Source: Chamaesiphon sp. 336R_metabinner_41 (GTDB lineage: Bacteria > Cyanobacteriota > Cyanobacteriia > Cyanobacteriales > Chamaesiphonaceae). From it: 40,950 nucleotides of DNA. The stretch lies in assembly GCA_025359915.1 (NCBI GenBank), contig JANYDE010000110.1, positions 1-40,950 of the forward strand, read 5' to 3'. Shown piece by piece: positions 1,567 through 32,488 of the stretch (position 1 is its first letter; the number at the start of each line of letters is the position of its first letter). The notes under the pieces are model-generated. The model saw only the letters and a program-made list of their open reading frames with translations. It was not told the origin of the DNA and made no database searches. Position numbers and translations under genes: made by a program.

Positions 1567-1613
1567 TTAATAAAAATTATAACTGATGCCGATCGGCTCC
1601 TAATTGCTGATGG

Positions 1614-1639
1614 ATTCAATTCGATCGATCGAATTGAAT
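1614..1639. repeat. 26-bp perfect palindrome near the right end of the IS
   Basis: ATTCAATTCGATC is followed directly by its reverse complement. The palindrome lies 19 bp inside the right terminal inverted repeat and contains overlapping CGATCG sites. It may be a subterminal structure of the element or simply a consequence of the abundant GATCGATC runs in this genome. Confidence 0.7.
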
Positions 1640-1670
1640 GCCATTTTATTGACTTATTCAGCAAGCCCCA

Positions 1671-4251
1671 ATTATGGCGGTGGTGCAGGTCGCCCCTTTG
1701 ACTCCAGCAAAATGTCTGGTCAACAGGGTGCTAGAGTAGAATTGTATGAGAACACAGGCGGATTCAAAGGGTTTACAACAACTGATAGTAATGGTTTGTA
1801 CAAGTTTGACTCCACTGTCACTGGGGGATTAGTTGCGGGATCTACTTACAAGGTGCGGGTTGTCAATAGCACTGTCACCTCCTCCCGTCCGCCGAATCCG
1901 GCTAACGTGATTAGCGCACTTCGTTCTGTCCAAACCTTCCGTACTGATGCCAGTACGGGGACTCCACTTGATGTGACGAATAAAGTTGGGGGCGAATTGC
2001 CGAATGAGGTCGATCCCGCTAGTCAGACTGGCTCTCAGACACTAGCGATCTTAAGTTCTGGCAGCACCTATCAAGTCCAATCGATCGCGCCTGTGACATT
2101 AAGTAATGGCAGTTTGACAGGTATCGATTTTGGGTTTAACTTCGATACGATCGTCAATACCAATAATAGTGGTCAAGGTTCTCTACGTCAATTTGTCGAT
2201 AATAGTAACTATCTTGCCAATACTGGACTCAATCAGGAACCCAGTTCCAGCCCCGCAACGGGTACTACGGCGATCGATCCTGCCGCTGGAGTTGAAACTA
2301 CTATTTTCATGATTCCGACTAGTGCCTTGTCCGCTACAGGTGCCGCTGTGATTAACTTTCCCGCTAGTGGGCGGTTGATTATTCGAGATGCTTTTACTGC
2401 TATCGATGGTCGCACCCAAACCACGAATAAAGGCAATACTAACAATACCATTCTAGGAGATACCAGCACACCGATCGGCATCGGTGGTACGACTCTAACG
2501 GGTGTCCCTGGAGCGGAGATCGAGCTACATCTGACTAACGATTTAGGGATCTATACTTACGGTGAAAATACTTATATCAATAGTATCGCCTTTACTGCGG
2601 ATGCGGGGGCGGCGATCGAAACCGATACCCTCGCCAAAAATAGCCGGATCGAAAATGTAACGATCGGTACTACCTCAGCCGCTGACAATTCACCCAGTGG
2701 TGGTTTTGCCAAAGCTTTATTAATTAATAGTGATAATACGCTGATCGATCGCAATTTAATTCGACCGCCTTGCGGCGCGCTTCGCGTTCGAGCTATGAAT
2801 CCGTAGTTCTCAATGCTAGTAATGTCACCATTGTCAAGGATCTCAAACTTACCAACAATGAGATCACCAGCGGCGTTTCCGATAATTCCGTCACAACTGG
2901 TGCCTGTATTCGCAGCGGAATTACCACCGCAACTGGCGGGACATTGAGAACAACGATCGAGAATAATTATCTCCACAAGTGTGCTTGGGGAATCGAGATG
3001 AATGGTAGTAACGGTGCCAGTGCCACGATCTTCAAAAATACGATCGACACCACCAAAAATTCAGGGATTATGATGAACTCTGGCGAGAAAAATCACACGA
3101 TCGAACTAAATGTGATTAGCCGCAGTTTGGGTGCTGGTATCGTTATCGAAGGTGGTCCGACTGGCATTAAAATCACCAAAAATAGTATCTATCGAAATGG
3201 TTCAGTTGGCATCGATCTCAACGATCACATTGCCGCATATCTGAGCGAAGGATTAACGCCAAATAACGGCAGTTTAGACAATACATTTGGCAATCAGCGC
3301 ATGAATTATCCAGTGATTATGTCATCTGTCGTAACGGGAAATTTACTGAGAGTTAAAGGATTTATTGGCAAAGACATCACTACTAGTAAAGCTTTTGCCA
3401 ATGCCAATCTCGAATTTTTTATTGCTGATGATGATGGTAATCAAAATGGCGAAGTTTTTGTCGGCGATCTGCGCAATAAACCACATGGCGAAGGTAAAAC
3501 TTATCTCAATAGCTGTGCGGCTGATGCAAATGGCGAATTTGATTGTACTTTCACTGTGGCGACGGGATTTAATTCGCGCAATATTACGGCTACGGCGACA
3601 ACCACTGATGGCTCGAATAATACCTCCGAATTTAGTGCCAGTCCAATGTTAAGAGCTAATGTCCTGATGATCAAACGGATTACCGCAATTAATGGCAATA
3701 TTCTCAAAAATCCTAATGATGATACCCCACTGCATGAATTTGTAGAAGATCCAACTTCTACTCATGATAATAACTGTAGCTGGCCTTTGAGTTATGACAA
3801 TGGCACGCCTGGATGTATCAATGACTATACCATCGGGGCGATTGATGCTGGCAAAGTCCAGCCTGGGGATGAGATTGAATATACAATTTATTATCTCAAT
3901 GCTGGTGAAAATAAAGCCTTTCAGGGTCGGATTTGCGACAGACTAAATACCAATTTAACTTTTCAACCTAATTTTGATTCTGTTAGCCCAAATACGGGAA
4001 TTGTTTTGGTTGAAAATGATGGAGTTCCAAAGTACTTAACCAATGGCGCAGATAGCGATCGAGGTCAATTGACTACTGCTGCTCTAGCAGGTGCTAATTG
4101 TAACTTAGCGGCAAATACTTTACCAAATTTATCTGACAATGTAGTTGTCGTTGATATTGCTAGTACTGCTAATCCATTAATTGGTTCGATCAATCAAGTT
4201 AATTCGACCGTTTCTCACGGATATATTCGCTTCAAAGTCAAGGTGAAATAA
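1671..4251 (+). pseudogene. 3' remnant of a large secreted beta-helix/DUF11-type surface protein, disrupted twice
   Basis: Two frames (to 2806, then from about 2770 to 4251) together match the C-terminal three quarters of the paralog at 4640-8359. Shared landmarks in order are NYGGGAGR and an SdrD B-like domain (YKVRVVNSTVTSSR), FDTIVNTNNSGQGSLRQF, a right-handed beta-helix region rich in Asn ladders, then NVLMIKRITAING and a DUF11-like conserved repeat (GDEIEYTIYYLNAGE). The 5' part, including any signal peptide, was separated by the IS and would lie left of the window. A second lesion at 2761-2786 shifts the frame. An ORF from 1604 reads out of the IS end into the remnant (400 aa) but lacks a secretion signal. 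Probably dead; a split short product cannot be excluded. Confidence 0.85.
2761..2786. repeat. 26-bp double-hairpin small repeat inserted in a coding sequence
   Basis: It contains two adjacent mini-hairpins with CTT loops: CCGC-CTT-GCGG and CGCG-CTT-CGCG. Deleting 2761-2786 rejoins the two frames as NLISSYESVVLN, which restores a continuous beta-helix. GC content is far above the surroundings. It resembles the small dispersed repeats described in cyanobacterial genomes. The exact borders are inferred from frame restoration. Confidence 0.65.
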
Positions 4252-4639: not shown

Positions 4640-7600
4640 ATGTTCAAGTCCCCCTGTAAAATTACTGACTCCGCAATCAGAAGAGATAAATATATAAGTT
4701 TTTTGGCTAGATCGTTGGCACAACCACTCTGGAAGAGTCTCGTCTATCTCAGTGTCATTGCAGTGGGCAATTCGTTCAGTCTTGATCCTCTTGTTGCCGC
4801 ACCACTAACAGCCCCAACCACAATCGAAAACCAAGCCACAGGTTCGTTTACCGATGGTGAAGATCCAGTCGCACAACCAGAATTAATTTTCTCGAACATC
4901 GTTAAAGTCACAGTCGCCGAGGTCGCTGGGATCACCGTCAGTTCGGGTGTTGCCTCAGAAGCTCCAAGCTCAGTCGCTAGTGCAGGAGCCTTCCAGGGGG
5001 ATGGCACCATCAACGCTGGAGATATTGCCTTCTTTGACTACGTTATCACCAATGCGGGTAACGACCCCACCCAATTCTTTATCCCTGGTGCGCCTTCTAG
5101 CATCACTGGCGGTACCTTTGATGCCACTACCAACCCCATCCAAATCATTGCCTACAACCCGACAGGTACCAGTGACATCCCTGTCACTGGCGTAACCGTA
5201 CCCGCCAGCGGTCAACGAACTGGTCCTGACGGTACGGCGACCCCTAGCTTAATACCTAATAAAAATGGCATTATCCCTGCTGGTGGTACCGTCACAATAA
5301 GGGTGCCGATCAAAGTCAATGCCACCGCAGCCGTAAATTCCACTATCTCTGTCACGATGGGTAATACGCCTACTCCCCTGGGCACAAACCAAGTCTACAC
5401 CAATAATAGCAACTTAGATATTTACACCCAAGACAACCCTGATGGTACCACCGATGCAGGTGGGACAGTCATTGAAACAGCAGGGATGCCAATCAATGGT
5501 GATACCACTAATCACCGTCAAGAATCTAGCAATATTGGCACCACTACGATTGTAATCGAACCAATCAACATCACGGGGAAAGTATTTGAAGATGTCAACT
5601 ATGGTGGTGGGGCTGGTCGCGATCTGACAACTTCCACCGGAATCACCAGACCGAATGTCCGCGTCGAACTCTATGCTGCTGACGGTACTTACTTAGGTGC
5701 GACTCTCACCGATGCTACTGGTAAATATAAATTCAACCAGTTTAATGTCACTCCAGCAACGGCATTTACCTCAGGTAAATCATACCAAGTCCGCGTTGTC
5801 AATAGCTTTGTCACCTCTAGCCGCTCTGGTGGTTGTGATTCGACTACTGCCACGCTCACGACAGCACCCACATCCTGTACTCAGTCACCTGTCCAAACTT
5901 TCCGCACTCTAGGAGATACCGACGCTAATAGTATCGCCGATCCTGATCTCCACCGTGTCGGTGGAGAGCTTCCAGCTAAATTAGATGCTGACTCCAATCT
6001 CACCAGTCAAAACCTCAGTGCGCTCACTGTCGGCACTAAAGCAGTAGAATCACTGACGACAGTAACTTTAGGGACTGCGGCTCTCAGTGGTGTAGATTTT
6101 GGTTATAACTTCGATACCATTGTTAACACAAACGATTCCGGTCAAGGTTCCTTACGTCAATTTATCACCAATAGTAATGCACTTACGAATACTGGACTAG
6201 CTCAAGTCGGACAGACCACAGGAAAAGAAGTTTCGATCTTCATGGTACCAAAAGGAAGTGCTTCCCCAGGCATTCTAGGCACTGTTCCTAGTCAACTCAC
6301 CAATGGAGTGGCAATCATCACCGTTGGTGCTAGTGAGTTACCCGCTATCACCGACCCGAACACCACTATTGATGGAACCACTCAAACAACCAACGTTGGT
6401 GATACCAATGCCGGTGTTACTGGTACAGGCGGCACCGTTGGTACAAGCGCGAACAACCTCTCCCAAGTTAACAAACCCGAAGTCGAGATCAACGATGGGA
6501 TATCCGGGAGTACATCATGGCGAACTAATGGTATCTTAGTCCACGCAAATAATACTACCGTCCGTGGCATGGCGATTTGGGGCTTTGGTTGGGGTAGTCA
6601 ACCAATGGGAGACATTCATGTTGGGCCGCTTAATGGCGTTGGTAATTGTAGTGCTTCTGATGTCTTTACCGGATTATTATTCGAGCAAAATGTACTAGGA
6701 ACTACAGCGGCTGGTTTTAATGCCGCCAACACGAACACGACCGGAAATGAGGGACGAGGCTTTGAATCCTCCTGTGGTAGTCAAGGTATTTTCCGTAATA
6801 ACCTGCTCGGATTTACCAAATATGTTGCAGGTGGATGGAATGATGCTAATAATGTCGATCCTAATATGAACTGGGTGATTACGAATAATGAGTTTCGATC
6901 GGCAGGGCATGACAACTTAATCGATAATGTCAGTTTTGAGAATAATGCTCATAACATTCTGTTTACCAACAACTTAGTCACTGGTTCTTATGCCAACGGG
7001 ATTAGTTTGTATGACAATGTATCCAGTGGCAACATCAAAATTGACAATAACACTATCACCAATAGTGGTTTTGGATCTGCGAGTACCGAATGGGCTGGGA
7101 TTGCCATCTTTACCGGCACCAATGGCGATGTCACGATCTCGAAAAACATTATTCAAGGCAATAAAGGCGCAGGCGTTTGGGTCGAAAAAGATTTCTCTGG
7201 TGTCAAAATAACTCAAAACTCGATGTTTGGGAATGGCGGTCTGGGTATCGATCTCAAGGGTACAACTCTAGATAATGGATCTGGAAATCAGACAATCCTC
7301 TCTGATACAGTCACCCCCAATGATGGTTCTAAGACTGTTGCCAATATCGCGAATCTAGGGATGGATTACCCGATTATGACCGCAGCCAGTGTTAGCGTAG
7401 TTGGGACTACTTCTACTCTGACCATTAAAGGTTATGTCGGCAATGTTGCGACAGGTAGCACCACCTTTAAAGATGCGAAGATCGAATTCTTTGTCGGTGC
7501 GGCGGATACGAATGATAAAGGTCGCGTATTCAGTACAGATCCAACCACGGTATCGAAGCTCCATGCAGAGGGTCAAACTTATCTTGGTACCTGTACTGCG

Positions 7601-8359
7601 GATGCCAATGGATTATTTGGGACTACAGCACAGCCTTGTGCATTTACGGTTCCGACGGGAACTGACACTCGAAATATTACCTCGACCGCTACAGATCCAG
7701 CGGGAAATACATCCGAATTTAGTGCTGCTGTAGCTAGCGATCCGAATGTGTTATTAGTCAAGCGGATCACTGCGATTAATGGTTTAGCTCAACAGCCTGA
7801 TGGTAGTTTACTCAATACTTACGTACATTTTAATACTTATGATGATAATACCATTTCGATTCCGACCCAAGCCACCTCCAGCGATCCCCAAAAAGATACA
7901 GATAAATGGCCTAATGCTGCTAGCGGCTTTTTGTTAGGAGCAGTTGATGGTGGGAATGTAGCACCCAATAGCTCGATCGAATATACCATTTATTTCCTTT
8001 CCACTGGCGAGAGTGATGCTAAAAATGTATTATTCTGCGATCGAGTCCCTGGTAATGTGACGTTTATCCCCAATGCCTACAATCATATTCCTTCCCCTAC
8101 GCCTAGTACTAATCCCAATCGTGGGATCGTCGTCCAGATTGGTACGACGCTGACTGCCTATGAGTCCCTTGATAGTAGTTACGCCAAGTACTTCCCGCCA
8201 GGAGTCGAACCGAGTGGTCTTTATCCAACTGCTAAATGTGGCGGTGCGAATACCAATGGAGCTGTTGTCGTTAATCTCGGTAATATCCCTCAAGCGACAG
8301 CTAGCGGTGTGCCACCTGAGTCCTATGGCTTTGTCAGATTCAAAGGACGGGTTAAATAG
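4640..8359 (+). CDS. Secreted beta-helix / DUF11-type surface protein, 1239 aa
   Basis: Likely an exported cell-surface or matrix protein; no enzymatic role is visible. A long basic N-terminus (about 35 residues) precedes a hydrophobic stretch (SLVYLSVIAVGNSF) ending near VAAPL, consistent with a signal peptide. The mature part begins with a region rich in Gly, Thr and Val that recalls DUF11-like beta domains (about 60-310). A SdrD B-like domain follows (VNYGGGAGRDL to YQVRVVNSFVTSSR, about 315-400), then a parallel beta-helix region (about 500-900, with NNLVTGSYANGI and KITQNSMFGNGGLGIDL type coils). A C-terminal segment contains NVLLVKRITAING and SSIEYTIYFLSTGE. It is a tandem paralog of the broken gene just upstream. 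The N-terminus contains a possible small-repeat-derived peptide (see 4716-4734). Confidence 0.85.
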   Translation: MFKSPCKITDSAIRRDKYISFLARSLAQPLWKSLVYLSVIAVGNSFSLDPLVAAPLTAPTTIENQATGSFTDGEDPVAQPELIFSNIVKVTVAEVAGITVSSGVASEAPSSVASAGAFQGDGTINAGDIAFFDYVITNAGNDPTQFFIPGAPSSITGGTFDATTNPIQIIAYNPTGTSDIPVTGVTVPASGQRTGPDGTATPSLIPNKNGIIPAGGTVTIRVPIKVNATAAVNSTISVTMGNTPTPLGTNQVYTNNSNLDIYTQDNPDGTTDAGGTVIETAGMPINGDTTNHRQESSNIGTTTIVIEPINITGKVFEDVNYGGGAGRDLTTSTGITRPNVRVELYAADGTYLGATLTDATGKYKFNQFNVTPATAFTSGKSYQVRVVNSFVTSSRSGGCDSTTATLTTAPTSCTQSPVQTFRTLGDTDANSIADPDLHRVGGELPAKLDADSNLTSQNLSALTVGTKAVESLTTVTLGTAALSGVDFGYNFDTIVNTNDSGQGSLRQFITNSNALTNTGLAQVGQTTGKEVSIFMVPKGSASPGILGTVPSQLTNGVAIITVGASELPAITDPNTTIDGTTQTTNVGDTNAGVTGTGGTVGTSANNLSQVNKPEVEINDGISGSTSWRTNGILVHANNTTVRGMAIWGFGWGSQPMGDIHVGPLNGVGNCSASDVFTGLLFEQNVLGTTAAGFNAANTNTTGNEGRGFESSCGSQGIFRNNLLGFTKYVAGGWNDANNVDPNMNWVITNNEFRSAGHDNLIDNVSFENNAHNILFTNNLVTGSYANGISLYDNVSSGNIKIDNNTITNSGFGSASTEWAGIAIFTGTNGDVTISKNIIQGNKGAGVWVEKDFSGVKITQNSMFGNGGLGIDLKGTTLDNGSGNQTILSDTVTPNDGSKTVANIANLGMDYPIMTAASVSVVGTTSTLTIKGYVGNVATGSTTFKDAKIEFFVGAADTNDKGRVFSTDPTTVSKLHAEGQTYLGTCTADANGLFGTTAQPCAFTVPTGTDTRNITSTATDPAGNTSEFSAAVASDPNVLLVKRITAINGLAQQPDGSLLNTYVHFNTYDDNTISIPTQATSSDPQKDTDKWPNAASGFLLGAVDGGNVAPNSSIEYTIYFLSTGESDAKNVLFCDRVPGNVTFIPNAYNHIPSPTPSTNPNRGIVVQIGTTLTAYESLDSSYAKYFPPGVEPSGLYPTAKCGGANTNGAVVVNLGNIPQATASGVPPESYGFVRFKGRVK
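4716..4734 (+). repeat. GTTGGC-type small dispersed repeat inside the signal-peptide region
   Basis: The codons for SLAQPLWK match the repeat at 12001-12024 (SLAKPLRK when read in the same frame) at about 19 of 24 bases. This suggests that a small dispersed repeat was absorbed into the 5' coding region. The match is short, so chance similarity is possible. Confidence 0.4.
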
Positions 8360-8387
8360 TTGATAGTTGATAGTTGATAGTTGATAG
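8360..8387 (+). repeat. Heptamer array, 4 copies of TTGATAG
   Basis: Four exact tandem copies begin directly after the stop codon (TAG at 8357-8359) of the surface-protein gene. It belongs to the 7-bp tandem repeat class (STRR-like) found repeatedly in this window. Confidence 0.9.
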
Positions 8388-17655: not shown

Positions 17656-19593
17656 ATGAAATTACGCAGAAGTGTTTTGGCAGTCATCGTTTCAGTCACG
17701 ATTTGGGTTTGCGTTGCATATGCAAATCCACAATCGGACAACTCGCCCCAAACCATTGCTGCTGTGAATTCTTGGCGATCTGCACCAGACTTGTTAAGTC
17801 GTTACAAAGAAGCTAACTTGAGATCTTCCTATGCTAACAAAATCTCATTTGTCGAGCTGTCAACGGCAGTTAAACCTGTCGCAGCACCTGGACGCTCTGG
17901 TTTACAAGCTGCACATTGGTTGCATCTGCCTAGCGTTCCCACGATTCATACCACTGACGTACCGCAAAATTGGTGTGGCAAAGAAGCTCTAAATTTCGAT
18001 CTATATGCCGCCAAAAACCTCGGTGAAATCGTTACGATTGGGGTGGCAAATAATGCCCCAAGCGATCCTCCAAAATTTCATATCAACGATTACTTCTTGG
18101 CGAGCATCAAGGTAAATTGGAGCGGCTGGAAAACAATTAGCGTCCCATTGAATTCATTTACAATGGTACGCAGATCGAATGGTTGGAAACCAGAAACGCC
18201 ATTCAGTTGCGGACAGGATTCAAGTATCGGCTGGAATCGAGTATCTGGACTGTATTTATTTAGCAAGATTTTTAATTATCAACCGCACCCAAACAGCGAG
18301 TTTTATATTGGCAAAGTGTCCTTGGGAAAATCAATCGAAAAAGTACCATTGATCGTTAGTTTTGGAGACTACCCATTGCAGTATAAATCATCGGAAACGG
18401 AGATTAAAGGCGTTGAAGGGGAACTCTTCAACCCTACCAGCCCTCTCTCGCGCTGGTGGAATCATCAAGCTCCAGAAATTAAGACTGACACACCGCTGGA
18501 ACTCCCGTTCCGGCTTGGTGCTTATTTCCGCCACGAACGCGCTCTGCTTGACTATTTTCCGCGTTATGAGCCTGGGTATGTTAATTTTACAGCCCAAGGT
18601 GTCCCGACGATATTTGCTGGCGGTAATGCGATCCAGTACGCGCCCCACGGTGGCAAATGGCAAGTCATCAACCTTGCCGACACCATTACCAGATATGCCA
18701 AGGAGAAGCTGGGCTATCGCCAAATTTCGATGCATAGCGGCGGGGATGATGTGTATGCCGTGTATGGATTACCAATCCTCAATTTGGATAAAAACGATCC
18801 GATTTCTCTGCGGGGATTGCCGACATATATTACGAAATACAATCGTCAAAGCCATAAATTCTCCACACCTGTATTGGTAGGATATGGCGGGACAAAATCA
18901 TCCGATGGACATAATTGGGCGGTAATGGCGATCGATAGTAAAGGGATACTGCATGTCATCATCAACGGACATCACGATCCATTTGTCTATACCAAGAGTC
19001 TGCGTCCCCACGATATCACAGCCTGGACGAGTCCCCAACAGGTTGGTAACGGAACATCATATCTGGGATTGGTAATCGATCGACAGGATACGTTGTATAG
19101 CGTCAGCCGCAACAGCGAAAACGGCTATTATTTCGACTTAGCACTGCATCGTCTCCGCAGTGGTGGTGCCTGGGAAACCAAGCATCTGGTGATGCCATCC
19201 CGAAATTATTACCATGTCTGGTTTCATAATCTCAATATCGACCCGCGATCGGGTAAACTCTTTTTGAGCTATCATTCACAATCGATCGAGTTGGAGATAT
19301 TTGGCGATGATATTGAAATGATGCTCTATCAACGTCCAGATTTTGCACCTCAAACGCTAAATTCAAATGGCAGTGATAAATACGTACCGAGAACGGTAAT
19401 TCAGGGATCTGGTAGTGGCGGACATGAAACCTACGATGTCCCGTGGGATGAACGGGCGATTTTGACTAGCTCTGATGGTGGTGACAATTGGCGGATGGCA
19501 TTGAGCAAAGACTTACAAGCACCAGCAGATTGCTCGATAATCGTTCCCAAAAGCTCCGCCAATGCCAACAATGCTGATTTAATTTGTCATTGA
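17656..19593 (+). CDS. Secreted BNR_4-domain protein, putative polysaccharide lyase (ulvan-lyase-like)
   Basis: 645 aa. The signal peptide (KLRRSVLAVIVSVTIWVCVAYA) predicts export. Residues about 100-235 look like a carbohydrate-binding jelly-roll (GWKTISVPLNSF, GWNRVSGLYLFS). From about 340 a beta-propeller-like BNR_4 region follows, with SGGDDVYAVYG, DGHNWAVMAIDSKGILHV and INGHHDPFVYTKS. BNR_4 propellers are the fold of ulvan lyase families such as PL24 and PL25, whose paired catalytic histidines are spaced about 20 residues. Here His419 and His439/His440 have that spacing. The substrate is unknown; an exopolysaccharide or algal polysaccharide lyase is inferred, and a non-catalytic sugar-binding role is the main alternative. 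The gene has no obvious operon partners. Confidence 0.72.
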   Translation: MKLRRSVLAVIVSVTIWVCVAYANPQSDNSPQTIAAVNSWRSAPDLLSRYKEANLRSSYANKISFVELSTAVKPVAAPGRSGLQAAHWLHLPSVPTIHTTDVPQNWCGKEALNFDLYAAKNLGEIVTIGVANNAPSDPPKFHINDYFLASIKVNWSGWKTISVPLNSFTMVRRSNGWKPETPFSCGQDSSIGWNRVSGLYLFSKIFNYQPHPNSEFYIGKVSLGKSIEKVPLIVSFGDYPLQYKSSETEIKGVEGELFNPTSPLSRWWNHQAPEIKTDTPLELPFRLGAYFRHERALLDYFPRYEPGYVNFTAQGVPTIFAGGNAIQYAPHGGKWQVINLADTITRYAKEKLGYRQISMHSGGDDVYAVYGLPILNLDKNDPISLRGLPTYITKYNRQSHKFSTPVLVGYGGTKSSDGHNWAVMAIDSKGILHVIINGHHDPFVYTKSLRPHDITAWTSPQQVGNGTSYLGLVIDRQDTLYSVSRNSENGYYFDLALHRLRSGGAWETKHLVMPSRNYYHVWFHNLNIDPRSGKLFLSYHSQSIELEIFGDDIEMMLYQRPDFAPQTLNSNGSDKYVPRTVIQGSGSGGHETYDVPWDERAILTSSDGGDNWRMALSKDLQAPADCSIIVPKSSANANNADLICH

Positions 19594-20800: not shown

Positions 20801-20880
20801 CTGATAATGTTACTTACCTAAATACATATACAACTATTTTCTTGGTCTGCGATAGTAGGTTTTTGCAATTCTTGATATTA

Positions 20881-20941
20881 GGGGATAGGGGATAGGGGAT
20901 AGGGGATAGGGGATAGGGGATAGGGGATAGGGGATAGGGGA
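20881..20941 (+). repeat. Heptamer array, 8 copies of GGGGATA plus a partial ninth
   Basis: Exact tandem copies run from 20881 to 20936, with GGGGA continuing to 20941. It lies downstream of alr (minus strand) and faces an inverted C-rich array at 20972-21006. Confidence 0.95.
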
Positions 20942-20971
20942 ACTTTAGTTTTCAGAAAAGTTTTTGATCTC

Positions 20972-21006
20972 TAATTCCTAATCCCTAATCCCTAATCCCT
21001 ATCCCC
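20972..21006 (+). repeat. C-rich heptamer array (TAATCCC/TATCCCC) overlapping the alr stop codon
   Basis: Units are TAATTCC, three TAATCCC (20979-20999) and TATCCCC (21000-21006). The last is the exact complement of the GGGGATA unit at 20881-20941, so the two arrays could pair across a 30-bp spacer. The alr stop codon (20999-21001, complement) falls inside it. Confidence 0.85.
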
Positions 21007-22144
21007 TAATCCTCGGCAATCGATTCTTAAAGCCACAAAGAATTTCCCAGGAGATGGTACCTAGTTGATTTGCCCAATCGTCGGCGGTAATCTGGACAGA
21101 TCCATCTCGTCCTAAAATTGTGACGATCTCGCCTACCTGAAGATCGGGAATCTGACTGACATCGATCATAATCCGATCCATCGTAATCGAGCCAATTTGG
21201 GGCACTAATTGACCTCTAATTGACACCTGCATTTGATTCGACAATCGACGGGGAATGCCGTCAGCATAGCCAATATCCACAACTGCTAACCGGATATCTC
21301 GATCGGCGATAAACCGATAACCATAACTCACTCCCGTCCCCGCCGCAATCTCTTTGATTTGATTGACTCTGGCTCTGACACTCAAGACTGGTTGAAGATC
21401 GATTTTAGCTTGCAAATGCGGTGCTGGGCAAAGTCCGTATAAGATTAATCCTGGTCGAACTAACTGGTAGTGTAATCGATCGCTAACCAATATCCCCGCC
21501 GAATTTGCCAGATGGAGCAGGGGCAGTGCATGTCCCGCCGCACCAATTGCTGCGACTGCTTGCCCAAATCTGTCGAGTTGCATCTCCATTACGGTTCGAT
21601 CGATCTCATCAGCAGTGGCTAGATGAGAGTACAAGCCGCCAATTTCCAGGTACGGTAGACTTTTGACCTGACTGAAAAAATCGATAGCTTGTTGCCAATC
21701 TGTCCCCAATCTAGACATACCTGTATCGAGCTTGAGGTGAATGATTAAAGGTTCGCTGGGTTGTAATGTAGCGATCGCTTTTGAGACTACAGTTGCTTGT
21801 TCGACGGTGCAGATGGTTGGAGTTAGTCCCCATTTAACAATTGCCTGTACTTGTACCTCACTATTTACGCCACCCAGAATCAAAATCGGTGCGACGATTC
21901 CGGCGGTTCGGAGTTCGATCCCTTCTGTCACCGTTGCCACCGCCAGCCACTCCACACCTTCAGCGATCACAGTGCGGGCAATATCGATCGATCCATGTCC
22001 ATAGGCATCGGCTTTAACTACTGCCATCATGCTAATATCGGCAGCTAATAAGCTCTTAATCTGGCGGACATTATGCGCCAATGCCGATAAATCAATTTCT
22101 ACCCAGGCGCGTTGCTGTTCCCAATCGATCGCAGAATTCATCAA
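20999..22144 (-). CDS. alr: Alanine racemase
   Basis: 381 aa, family length. This PLP enzyme makes D-alanine for peptidoglycan. The PLP lysine is in AVVKADAYGHG (Lys44), and the second catalytic base, a tyrosine, is in GVSYGYRF. VRPGLILYGL and the C-terminal SITMDRIMIDVSQIP are typical. A second Met follows immediately (MMNS), so the start may be one codon later. The C-terminal codons and stop run into a heptamer repeat, suggesting the extreme C-terminus was shaped by repeat expansion. Confidence 0.96.
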   Translation of the reverse strand: MMNSAIDWEQQRAWVEIDLSALAHNVRQIKSLLAADISMMAVVKADAYGHGSIDIARTVIAEGVEWLAVATVTEGIELRTAGIVAPILILGGVNSEVQVQAIVKWGLTPTICTVEQATVVSKAIATLQPSEPLIIHLKLDTGMSRLGTDWQQAIDFFSQVKSLPYLEIGGLYSHLATADEIDRTVMEMQLDRFGQAVAAIGAAGHALPLLHLANSAGILVSDRLHYQLVRPGLILYGLCPAPHLQAKIDLQPVLSVRARVNQIKEIAAGTGVSYGYRFIADRDIRLAVVDIGYADGIPRRLSNQMQVSIRGQLVPQIGSITMDRIMIDVSQIPDLQVGEIVTILGRDGSVQITADDWANQLGTISWEILCGFKNRLPRIRG

Positions 22145-22225
22145 ATCTCTAGTAATGTAATTAAAGTCGCGTTGCTGAATTTAGGGATGATTCATCATTT
22201 TTGCAACAAACAATTATCCTTCTCT

Positions 22226-22309
22226 CCAATCTCCAATCTCCAATCTCCAATCTCCAATCTCCAATCTCCAATCTCCAATCTCCAATCTCCAATCTCCAAT
22301 CTCCAATCT
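22226..22309 (+). repeat. Heptamer array, 12 exact copies of CCAATCT
   Basis: Twelve perfect tandem heptamers (84 bp) lie between divergent alr and the HNH gene, ending 51 bp before the HNH start. They fill much of the 216-bp shared promoter region. This is the longest and most uniform array in the window. Confidence 0.97.
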
Positions 22310-22360
22310 CTAGTTTGTGTTAACATCTGAGCAAATAGGTCTCAAATTCTCAAAGCAGAC

Positions 22361-26723: not shown

Positions 26724-26752
26724 TCTCCCAGTCTCCCATCTCCCATCTCCCA
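26724..26752 (+). repeat. Heptamer array of TCTCCCA before cobA
   Basis: Three exact tandem copies at 26732-26752 are preceded by a fourth offset by one base (26724-26730). The array ends 9 bp before the cobA-hemD start, occupying the place where a ribosome-binding site would be. Confidence 0.85.
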
Positions 26753-26761
26753 TCTATCCTA

Positions 26762-32400: not shown

Positions 32401-32435
32401 GGGGATAGGGGATAGGTAATAGGTAATAGGTAATA
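32401..32435 (+). repeat. G-rich heptamer array (GGGGATA x2, GGTAATA x3)
   Basis: Five tandem heptamers of two related types start one base after the HpsJ-like stop codon. Together with the C-rich array at 32454-32488 they form an inverted pair. Confidence 0.9.
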
Positions 32436-32453
32436 GGTTCTAAAATTTCACTG

Positions 32454-32488
32454 TCCCCTATCCACTATCCACTATCCCCGATCCACTG
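32454..32488 (+). repeat. C-rich heptamer array (TCCCCTA, TCCACTA x2, TCCCCGA, TCCACTG)
   Basis: Five degenerate heptamers in the orientation opposite to the G-rich array, 18 bp away. The arrangement parallels 20881-21006. Confidence 0.85.

Follow-up and report, generated by a model that had tools for sequence, protein, structure and literature searches.

A candidate secreted polysaccharide lyase of the BNR_4 family with an apparently shortened beta-propeller in a cyanobacterial genome

We analyzed a 40,950-nt stretch of DNA of Chamaesiphon sp. 336R_metabinner_41 (contig JANYDE010000110.1), referred to below as the window, which encodes a 645-aa protein belonging to a BNR_4 beta-propeller subfamily. 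We assign about an even chance to the reading that this protein is a secreted lyase acting on polysaccharide that contains uronate, that its propeller is shortened and that its gene was acquired horizontally; the protein's activity, substrate and role are what we infer. Beta-elimination on a uronate is proposed because a His/His/Tyr/Arg set is retained. In the proposed mechanism (i) the N-terminal carbohydrate-binding module (CBM)-like domain would keep the enzyme on the polymer, (ii) R485 would neutralise the uronate carboxylate, (iii) H419, with H439 and Y469, would take the C5 proton and protonate the leaving oxygen, and (iv) the target would be acidic exopolysaccharide, of the organism itself or of its neighbours, which would be trimmed.

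Active sites are closely alike among the propeller lyases of families PL24, PL25 and PL42. A subfamily in which this site is shifted, with one member about two blades short, would separate the needs of the chemistry (adjacent His and Tyr/Arg blades) from those of the seven-fold ring, and the 645-aa protein can be tested as a candidate secreted cyanobacterial enzyme for polysaccharide cleavage. The initial annotation, which had described an ulvan-lyase-like BNR_4 protein with a candidate catalytic His pair, included neither the Tyr/Arg half of the active site, nor the separate subfamily with its different blade order, nor the missing segment.

Gene and domain organization

The ORF is intact and starts with ATG. 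Its frame shows the best codon-usage fit of the six (0.053 per codon vs. -0.259 or lower for the other five), calculated with a table built from eight neighbouring genes; it lies below the fit of four of these genes (0.18-0.28), which are themselves part of the scoring table. The protein begins with M1-KLRR, followed by a hydrophobic run and A21-Y22-A23/N24, and this start resembles, by eye, a type I signal peptide, so that the secretion proposed in the initial annotation is upheld at the level of sequence. The carbohydrate-binding-like N-terminal domain proposed there has a weak counterpart in Pfam CBM_11 (aa 100-170; E 8.7e-5; 23.1 bits, under the cut-off of 27). Comparison of this domain with PDB sequences yielded no match better than E 0.2, and a search of 100 genomes matched the own genome alone (1/100). 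Assignment to the BNR_4 family was confirmed with the PF15892 profile, which matches aa 393-490 (E 5.2e-10; 39.6 bits, cut-off 27.3); the match is partial, covering positions 16-117 of 272 and not the whole profile, although Pfam's own criterion does not ask for full coverage. The features of the gene are listed in Table 1.

Table 1. Features of the gene and its product; blade borders are a reading of the alignment, not of a structure.
Feature	Position	Strand	Basis
Whole gene, 645 aa, secreted BNR_4-subfamily protein	17656..19593	+	ORF call, Pfam, subfamily profile
Putative signal peptide, aa 1-23 (AYA/NP)	17656..17724	+	Sequence, by eye
CBM-like beta-sandwich candidate, aa ~60-228, borders estimated	17833..18339	+	Pfam CBM_11 match to aa 100-170, under its cut-off
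Blade a, aa 281-347 (LPxxLG..HE..PR...W); aa 278-355 matched by profile 2-77 of 424	18496..18696	+	Subfamily profile
Approximate place of the relatives' roughly two extra blades (b, c)	18694..18699	+	W335-H360 spacing, alignment
Blade d, aa 348-415, with H360 (HSG)	18697..18900	+	Alignment of relatives
His blade e, aa 416-465	18901..19050	+	Pfam, alignment, profile
H419, counterpart of PL25 His123, FoRham1 His85 and BT3686 His90	18910..18912	+	Alignment; roles and numbers from passages of PMC8377490
H439, equivalent of the assisting His in PL25 (His143), FoRham1 (His105) and BT3686 (His110)	18970..18972	+	Alignment; passages of PMC8377490
Tyr/Arg blade f, aa 466-515	19051..19200	+	Alignment, subfamily profile
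Y469, counterpart of PL25 Tyr188 / FoRham1 Tyr150 by spacing; aligned to GH145/PL42 Tyr	19060..19062	+	Passages of PMC8377490
R485, by spacing the equivalent of PL25 Arg204 / FoRham1 Arg166, which neutralises the carboxylate; aligned to GH145/PL42 Arg	19108..19110	+	Passages of PMC8377490
Last blade g, aa 518-618, with H524, Asp-box SSDGGDNW and an insertion of ~40 aa relative to most relatives	19207..19509	+	Alignment

Active-site residues and relation to known enzymes

The protein has His residues at positions 419, 433, 439 and 440. Of the candidate pair named in the initial annotation (H419 with H439/440), H419 and H439 stood, being invariant in all 17 of the nearest relatives found (described below); H440 is matched in 1/17, so the family residue is H439. 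Y469, R485 and H524 are likewise kept in 17/17. The distances H419-H439 (20 residues) and Y469-R485 (16 residues) are constant across the 16 relatives with full propeller coverage, and both recur in the residue numbers of PL25 (123/143, 188/204) and FoRham1 (85/105, 150/166) given in passages of PMC8377490 and PMC11395424. The likeness in spacing to the histidines of propeller lyases, also claimed initially, was thus corroborated, and in alignments H419/H439 fall on BT3686 His90/His110 and on the PL25 His pair. Overall identity to the 16 relatives is 32-38%, at which the 645-aa protein keeps 31 of the 39 columns invariant among them; two of the eight altered columns lie beside key residues (T468S, Y523F).

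Counterparts of H419, H439, Y469 and R485 are also invariant in 10/10 diverse aligned BNR proteins, haloarchaeal sequences and the 645-aa protein included, which suggests that the His/His/Tyr/Arg set is general in BNR_4 and not specific to ulvan lyases. According to passages of PMC8377490, His85 of FoRham1 acts as base/acid, assisted by His105, with Tyr150 and with Arg166 as the neutraliser; the PL25 active site consists of His123, His143, Tyr188 and Arg204; and members of GH145, which is to be renamed PL42, retain the His pair. The same source states that BT3686 retains these residues, yet is a rhamnosidase acting at another site, so the set is no proof of lyase activity. Moreover, the catalytic base is given as His in FoRham1 and PL24 and as Tyr in PL25 (passages of PMC8377490 and PMC11395424), and the roles of the individual residues in the 645-aa protein are therefore uncertain.

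The best PDB match of profile A6 (nine rows, the 645-aa protein among them) was GH145/PL42 (E 1.6e-11), in an alignment that includes the His, Tyr and Arg columns and places the H419/H439 columns on His90/His110 of BT3686; PL25 followed at E 1.5e-5 with the His columns aligned. The subfamily is thus nearer to PL42/former GH145 (FoRham1, BT3686, BACOVA_03493; PF15892), with which it shares the BNR_4 propeller and the His/His and Tyr/Arg residues at 20/16 spacing, than to PL25. It differs from PL42/GH145, whose members have the canonical order with the His blade early, in that its His blade comes late, and the 645-aa protein is in addition about two blades short. The collinear match to GH145/PL42 structures is significant at positions 250-419 of the 428-position profile, not over the whole propeller, and blades a-c match later parts of these chains at -3.6 to 1.5 bits. 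An NQ pair that may correspond to Asn275-Gln276 of PL42 (-1 rhamnose) stands in blade a of 5/8 A6 relatives, not in the 645-aa protein. Judged from these comparisons, the 645-aa protein is no demonstrated PL42 member.

The same matches bear on the idea of a GH145-type glycoside hydrolase, a rhamnosidase working on the posterior face of the propeller as BT3686 does. BT3686 is the best PDB profile match (5muk/5mul), and the sole NCBIfam match is AlphRhmnaseBT3686 (NF052497; E 2.1e-5); its 23.2 bits stand far under a cut-off of 700, however, the significant structural match is limited to the anterior His/Tyr/Arg blades, and His48 falls outside the matched range (chain residues 82-225). We regard this alternative as highly improbable.

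The comparison with PL25 was made for ulvan lyase PLSV_3936 (5UAM/5UAS), whose His123/His143/Tyr188/Arg204 correspond to H419/H439/Y469/R485 (Tyr and Arg by spacing) and whose blade order differs from that of the subfamily; the comparison sequence (L005:6570-8036) matches 5UAM at E 9e-252. Passages of PMC13193363 name three PL25-specific neighbours of the active-site residues, namely Asn122, Lys125 and His208. Asn122 (before the first His) and Lys125 (two after it), present in the reference as DNHGK, are not in the 645-aa protein, which has D417-G-H-N-W421, and the zinc ligand His208 (Arg +4; RHGAH in the reference) is replaced by N489 (R485..N489). The absence of these hallmarks shows that the 645-aa protein is not a PL25 enzyme. 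The initial term 'ulvan lyase' was consequently too specific: the residue set is general in BNR_4, the closer structures are those of GH145/PL42, three PL25 positions are absent, and no GH88/105 gene was found in the genome.

For PL24 ulvan lyase LOR_107 (6BYP), passages of PMC11395424 describe a seven-bladed propeller with a His pair 21 residues apart and a neutralising Arg. It was found by Foldseek at E 1.1e-4, with a weak model as the query, and no PL24 chain is among the 34 PDB matches of A6 at E up to 10. PL28, listed initially among the CAZy profiles to be searched, was discarded from the comparison, as it is a jelly roll and not a propeller (passages of PMC11395424).

The canonical type is represented in another cyanobacterium (G047) by a TPR-fused BNR_4 protein (L003), which shares PF15892, the His pair and the Tyr/Arg residues. 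It has the canonical blade order, is close to GH145/PL42 structures (E 1.8e-73) and is not a subfamily member. The ORF upstream of its gene is glycosyltransferase-like (by eye).

A BNR_4 subfamily with altered blade order and a shortened member

The nearest relatives found are 17 proteins from Latescibacterota and Planctomycetota MAG sets, and their common trait is the position of the catalytic blades near the C-terminus. They were reached from distant plasmid BNR proteins, whose profile was used to scan genome contigs and gave ten loci, eight in Latescibacterota, Gemmatimonadota or Phycisphaerae MAGs and two in haloarchaea. In a search of four of these genomes together with one plasmid record, a much closer relative emerged, L025 of a Latescibacterota MAG (E 7.7e-20), which is 34% identical over aa 385-586 and has a further colinear match at 281-319. 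A two-sequence profile of the 645-aa protein and L025 then detected 13 strong relatives in 12/64 genomes of the Latescibacterota phylum and four in 4/246 genomes of the phylum to which the Phycisphaerae MAG belongs. The 13 were kept from 31 matches, and all four from the second phylum were kept; several of the 18 left out (E 4e-22 to 3e-13) are 940-1000-aa proteins, and L043 and L055 have the canonical order. L059 is partial and was excluded from counts that need the whole propeller, hence the number of 16.

Outside the propeller the relatives differ: N-terminal parts of ~350-416 aa gave no Pfam match above cut-off in the five scanned (L064, L069, L070, L073 and L074), L025 carries EF-hand/dockerin-like repeats, and L076 has LamG and a weak dockerin. 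No lyase gene cluster appeared among the best 25 of 105 families in their neighbourhoods (71 of 142 called ORFs scanned); the carbohydrate-related families among those 25 are AXE1 (4 ORFs), fungal-type glucuronyl esterase (3, weak) and Laminin_G_3 (2). In Latescibacterota, 940-1000-aa open frames (L050-L054, L056, L058 and others) match the His and Tyr/Arg part of the profile, and that of L050 seems, by eye, to continue into amidase-like sequence. Haloarchaeal loci L009, L015 and L022 encode ~600-aa BNR_4 proteins with a His-blade motif close to that of the 645-aa protein; L009 is located on a plasmid near a DUF2264 gene and L022 is chromosomal.

The propellers of the relatives can be read as seven blades, namely a, b, c, d, e (His), f (Tyr/Arg) and g (Asp box). 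In 14 of the 16 the His blade lies 248-266 aa after the propeller start, which was defined by a pattern, and is followed by 169-211 aa; the exceptions are L076 (272, with extra domains behind) and L063 (348, with an insert). Twelve canonical BNR_4 proteins, by comparison, have 347-360 aa behind their first His. Profile comparison placed blades d-g of the subfamily on the first part (24-250) of the canonical proteins (E 3.7e-23). By position, alignment thus shows that the blade order is changed relative to canonical BNR_4.

A circular permutation would explain this order and is weakly favoured, though not proven. When blades a-c were placed behind d-g, the score against canonical BNR_4 rose from about 173 to 197-199, vs. 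a maximum of 180.7 in 60 column shuffles; a control in which a second copy of d-g was appended scored nearly as high (192.3). The six orders of a, b and c behind d-g gave 178-199, with B-C-A the highest (198.8). Secondary PDB alignments placed a and b in order behind the catalytic blades in 5/5 chains shown, four of which are close relatives, and c after them in 2/5, at -3.6 to 3.7 bits. One alternative profile alignment begins where the first ends (canonical 250/251, P 0.007), and a stronger one (P 4e-5) sets b where the permutation wants a, one blade out of register.

The 645-aa protein departs further from this pattern. W335 and H360 are separated by 25 residues, vs. 130-145 in 16/16 relatives, so that the stretch between aa 335 and 360 is shorter by 105-120 residues, or about two blades, with the gap placed by the alignment at 347/348. 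A profile of the 16 relatives, built without the 645-aa protein, picks it up at E 3.5e-57 (one-sequence search space); the match falls into two parts, model positions 2-77 (23.1 bits) and 219-422 (155.2 bits) of 424. Blade d is also shorter than in the relatives, and blade g carries an insertion. The propeller therefore seems, from the alignment, to have been shortened by about two of seven blades, those without the His/His/Tyr/Arg residues; the blade count is likewise read from the alignment, and closure of the ring is presumed.

A propeller two blades short may fail to close or be inactive. The segment is absent from the 645-aa protein only, a single copy is known, and its codon fit is below that of neighbouring genes, all of which would suit a decaying or assembly-truncated gene, in which blades b and c were lost from a non-functional copy or through an assembly deletion in one genome. 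Against this stand the open frame, intact over 645 codons, and the retention of 31 of the 39 invariant columns with overall identity near one third, which is above neutral expectation; we consider such a loss of function, or of sequence, distinctly unlikely. If the protein were an active polysaccharide lyase whose five-bladed propeller arose through a clean two-blade loss from a seven-bladed ancestor circularly permuted with respect to PL25/PL42, it would represent a natural minimal propeller-lyase fold and found a new PL family, a prospect that we find doubtful. The subfamily itself is apparently undescribed so far: among the papers listed from the literature searched, which excluded most subscription papers, none gave an account of it or of a blade-deleted lyase. 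The word 'ulvan' occurs 19 times in a paper on the metabolic potential of Latescibacteria (PMC4454575), so a Latescibacteria-ulvan link may already be in print.

Structure prediction with AF2 gave a mean pLDDT of 35.8 for the single sequence and 51.9 for aa 276-645 with ten relatives, the latter model being poor and partial; in the second model, ten-residue means over aa 346-515 were mostly 58-89, with two lower (45, 53). Foldseek ranked a sialidase first for the partial model (E 1.4e-5) and returned GH145/PL42, PL25 and PL24 entries at E 5e-5 to 3e-4, with TM-scores mostly 0.3-0.4. VIA-align Z values near 12 were common to many unrelated propellers (lectins, methylamine dehydrogenase and others) and do not discriminate. 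The models support the propeller fold class of the protein, not its geometry.

Photorhabdus lectins are among the further matches of the partial model (VIA Z 13.8; Foldseek E 2.1e-4), which leads to a further alternative, a carbohydrate-binding protein (lectin or adhesin) whose pocket would bind an acidic glycan without cutting it and, with the CBM-like domain, aid cell attachment. It would fit the loss of about two blades and the lack of a GH88/105 match in the own genome, and passages of PMC9210967 place a BNR_4 cluster under ambiguous function, with adhesion suggested. On the other hand, propeller structure matches are not specific, and Y469, R485 and both His residues are conserved in 17/17 relatives, as a catalytic set would be. 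We judge such a binding protein improbable, though the leading alternative to the lyase.

Occurrence in cyanobacteria and genomic context

The initial remark that such a protein is unexpected in a cyanobacterium was well founded, since PF15892 was found in 3/386 cyanobacterial genomes sampled across the phylum, the own genome included, and in 1/40 related genomes, again the own one. With the protein as query, the own gene was the only match in the 386 genomes and in 100 related genomes. Profile A6 found it as the sole strong match (E 3.2e-83) in 388 genomes of the order; three more proteins, one of them the canonical BNR_4 protein of G047, matched at E 2.9e-9 to 2.1e-7 within profile positions 253-418 only. 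Single-protein scans of genome contigs, viral contigs and plasmids gave no confirmed relative: at E up to 10, phages yielded seven matches (E 5-8) and plasmids 15 records, several of which are distant BNR proteins. Scans of viral contigs with the subfamily and of plasmids with one relative as query found none.

A neighbouring helicase gene encodes a product 95 and 96% identical, over its full length, to those of two congeners, which assigns the contig to the genus. The lyase candidate and the gene order beyond the helicase promoter were not found in seven related stretches read (2-6 kb upstream), so that these showed no empty site. The gene was apparently acquired horizontally by this cyanobacterial lineage; we infer both the transfer and its direction.

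The other inspected ORFs of the window are housekeeping or unrelated genes, and the own genome gave no match to GH88/105 (PF07470) in a search whose control was positive in 3/14 genomes. In view of the unsuccessful search for a gene to process the products and of the kind of neighbours, ulvan catabolism seems improbable, and exopolysaccharide trimming is likelier than growth on ulvan as the role of the proposed lyase.

Several further elements were noted in the window. At 131-1566 an IS-type transposase looks split or interrupted, its N-terminal part (DUF772) and its C-terminal part (DDE_Tnp_1_2) lying in two adjoining ORFs. Neighbouring beta-helix/SdrD_B-like surface proteins are encoded at 1604-4251 and 4640-8359; within the former, two overlapping ORFs in different frames (1604-2806 and 2770-4251) have the look of a gene of the 4640-8359 type that was copied and then frameshifted. 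Seven heptanucleotide tandem arrays with differing units (e.g. TAGGGGA x9, TCTCCAA x12.6) are present at 8356-8387, 20879-20941, 20967-21012, 22223-22310, 26724-26755 and 32412-32487, and the 20879-20941 array has a similar stretch in a congener (L095 3629-3672).
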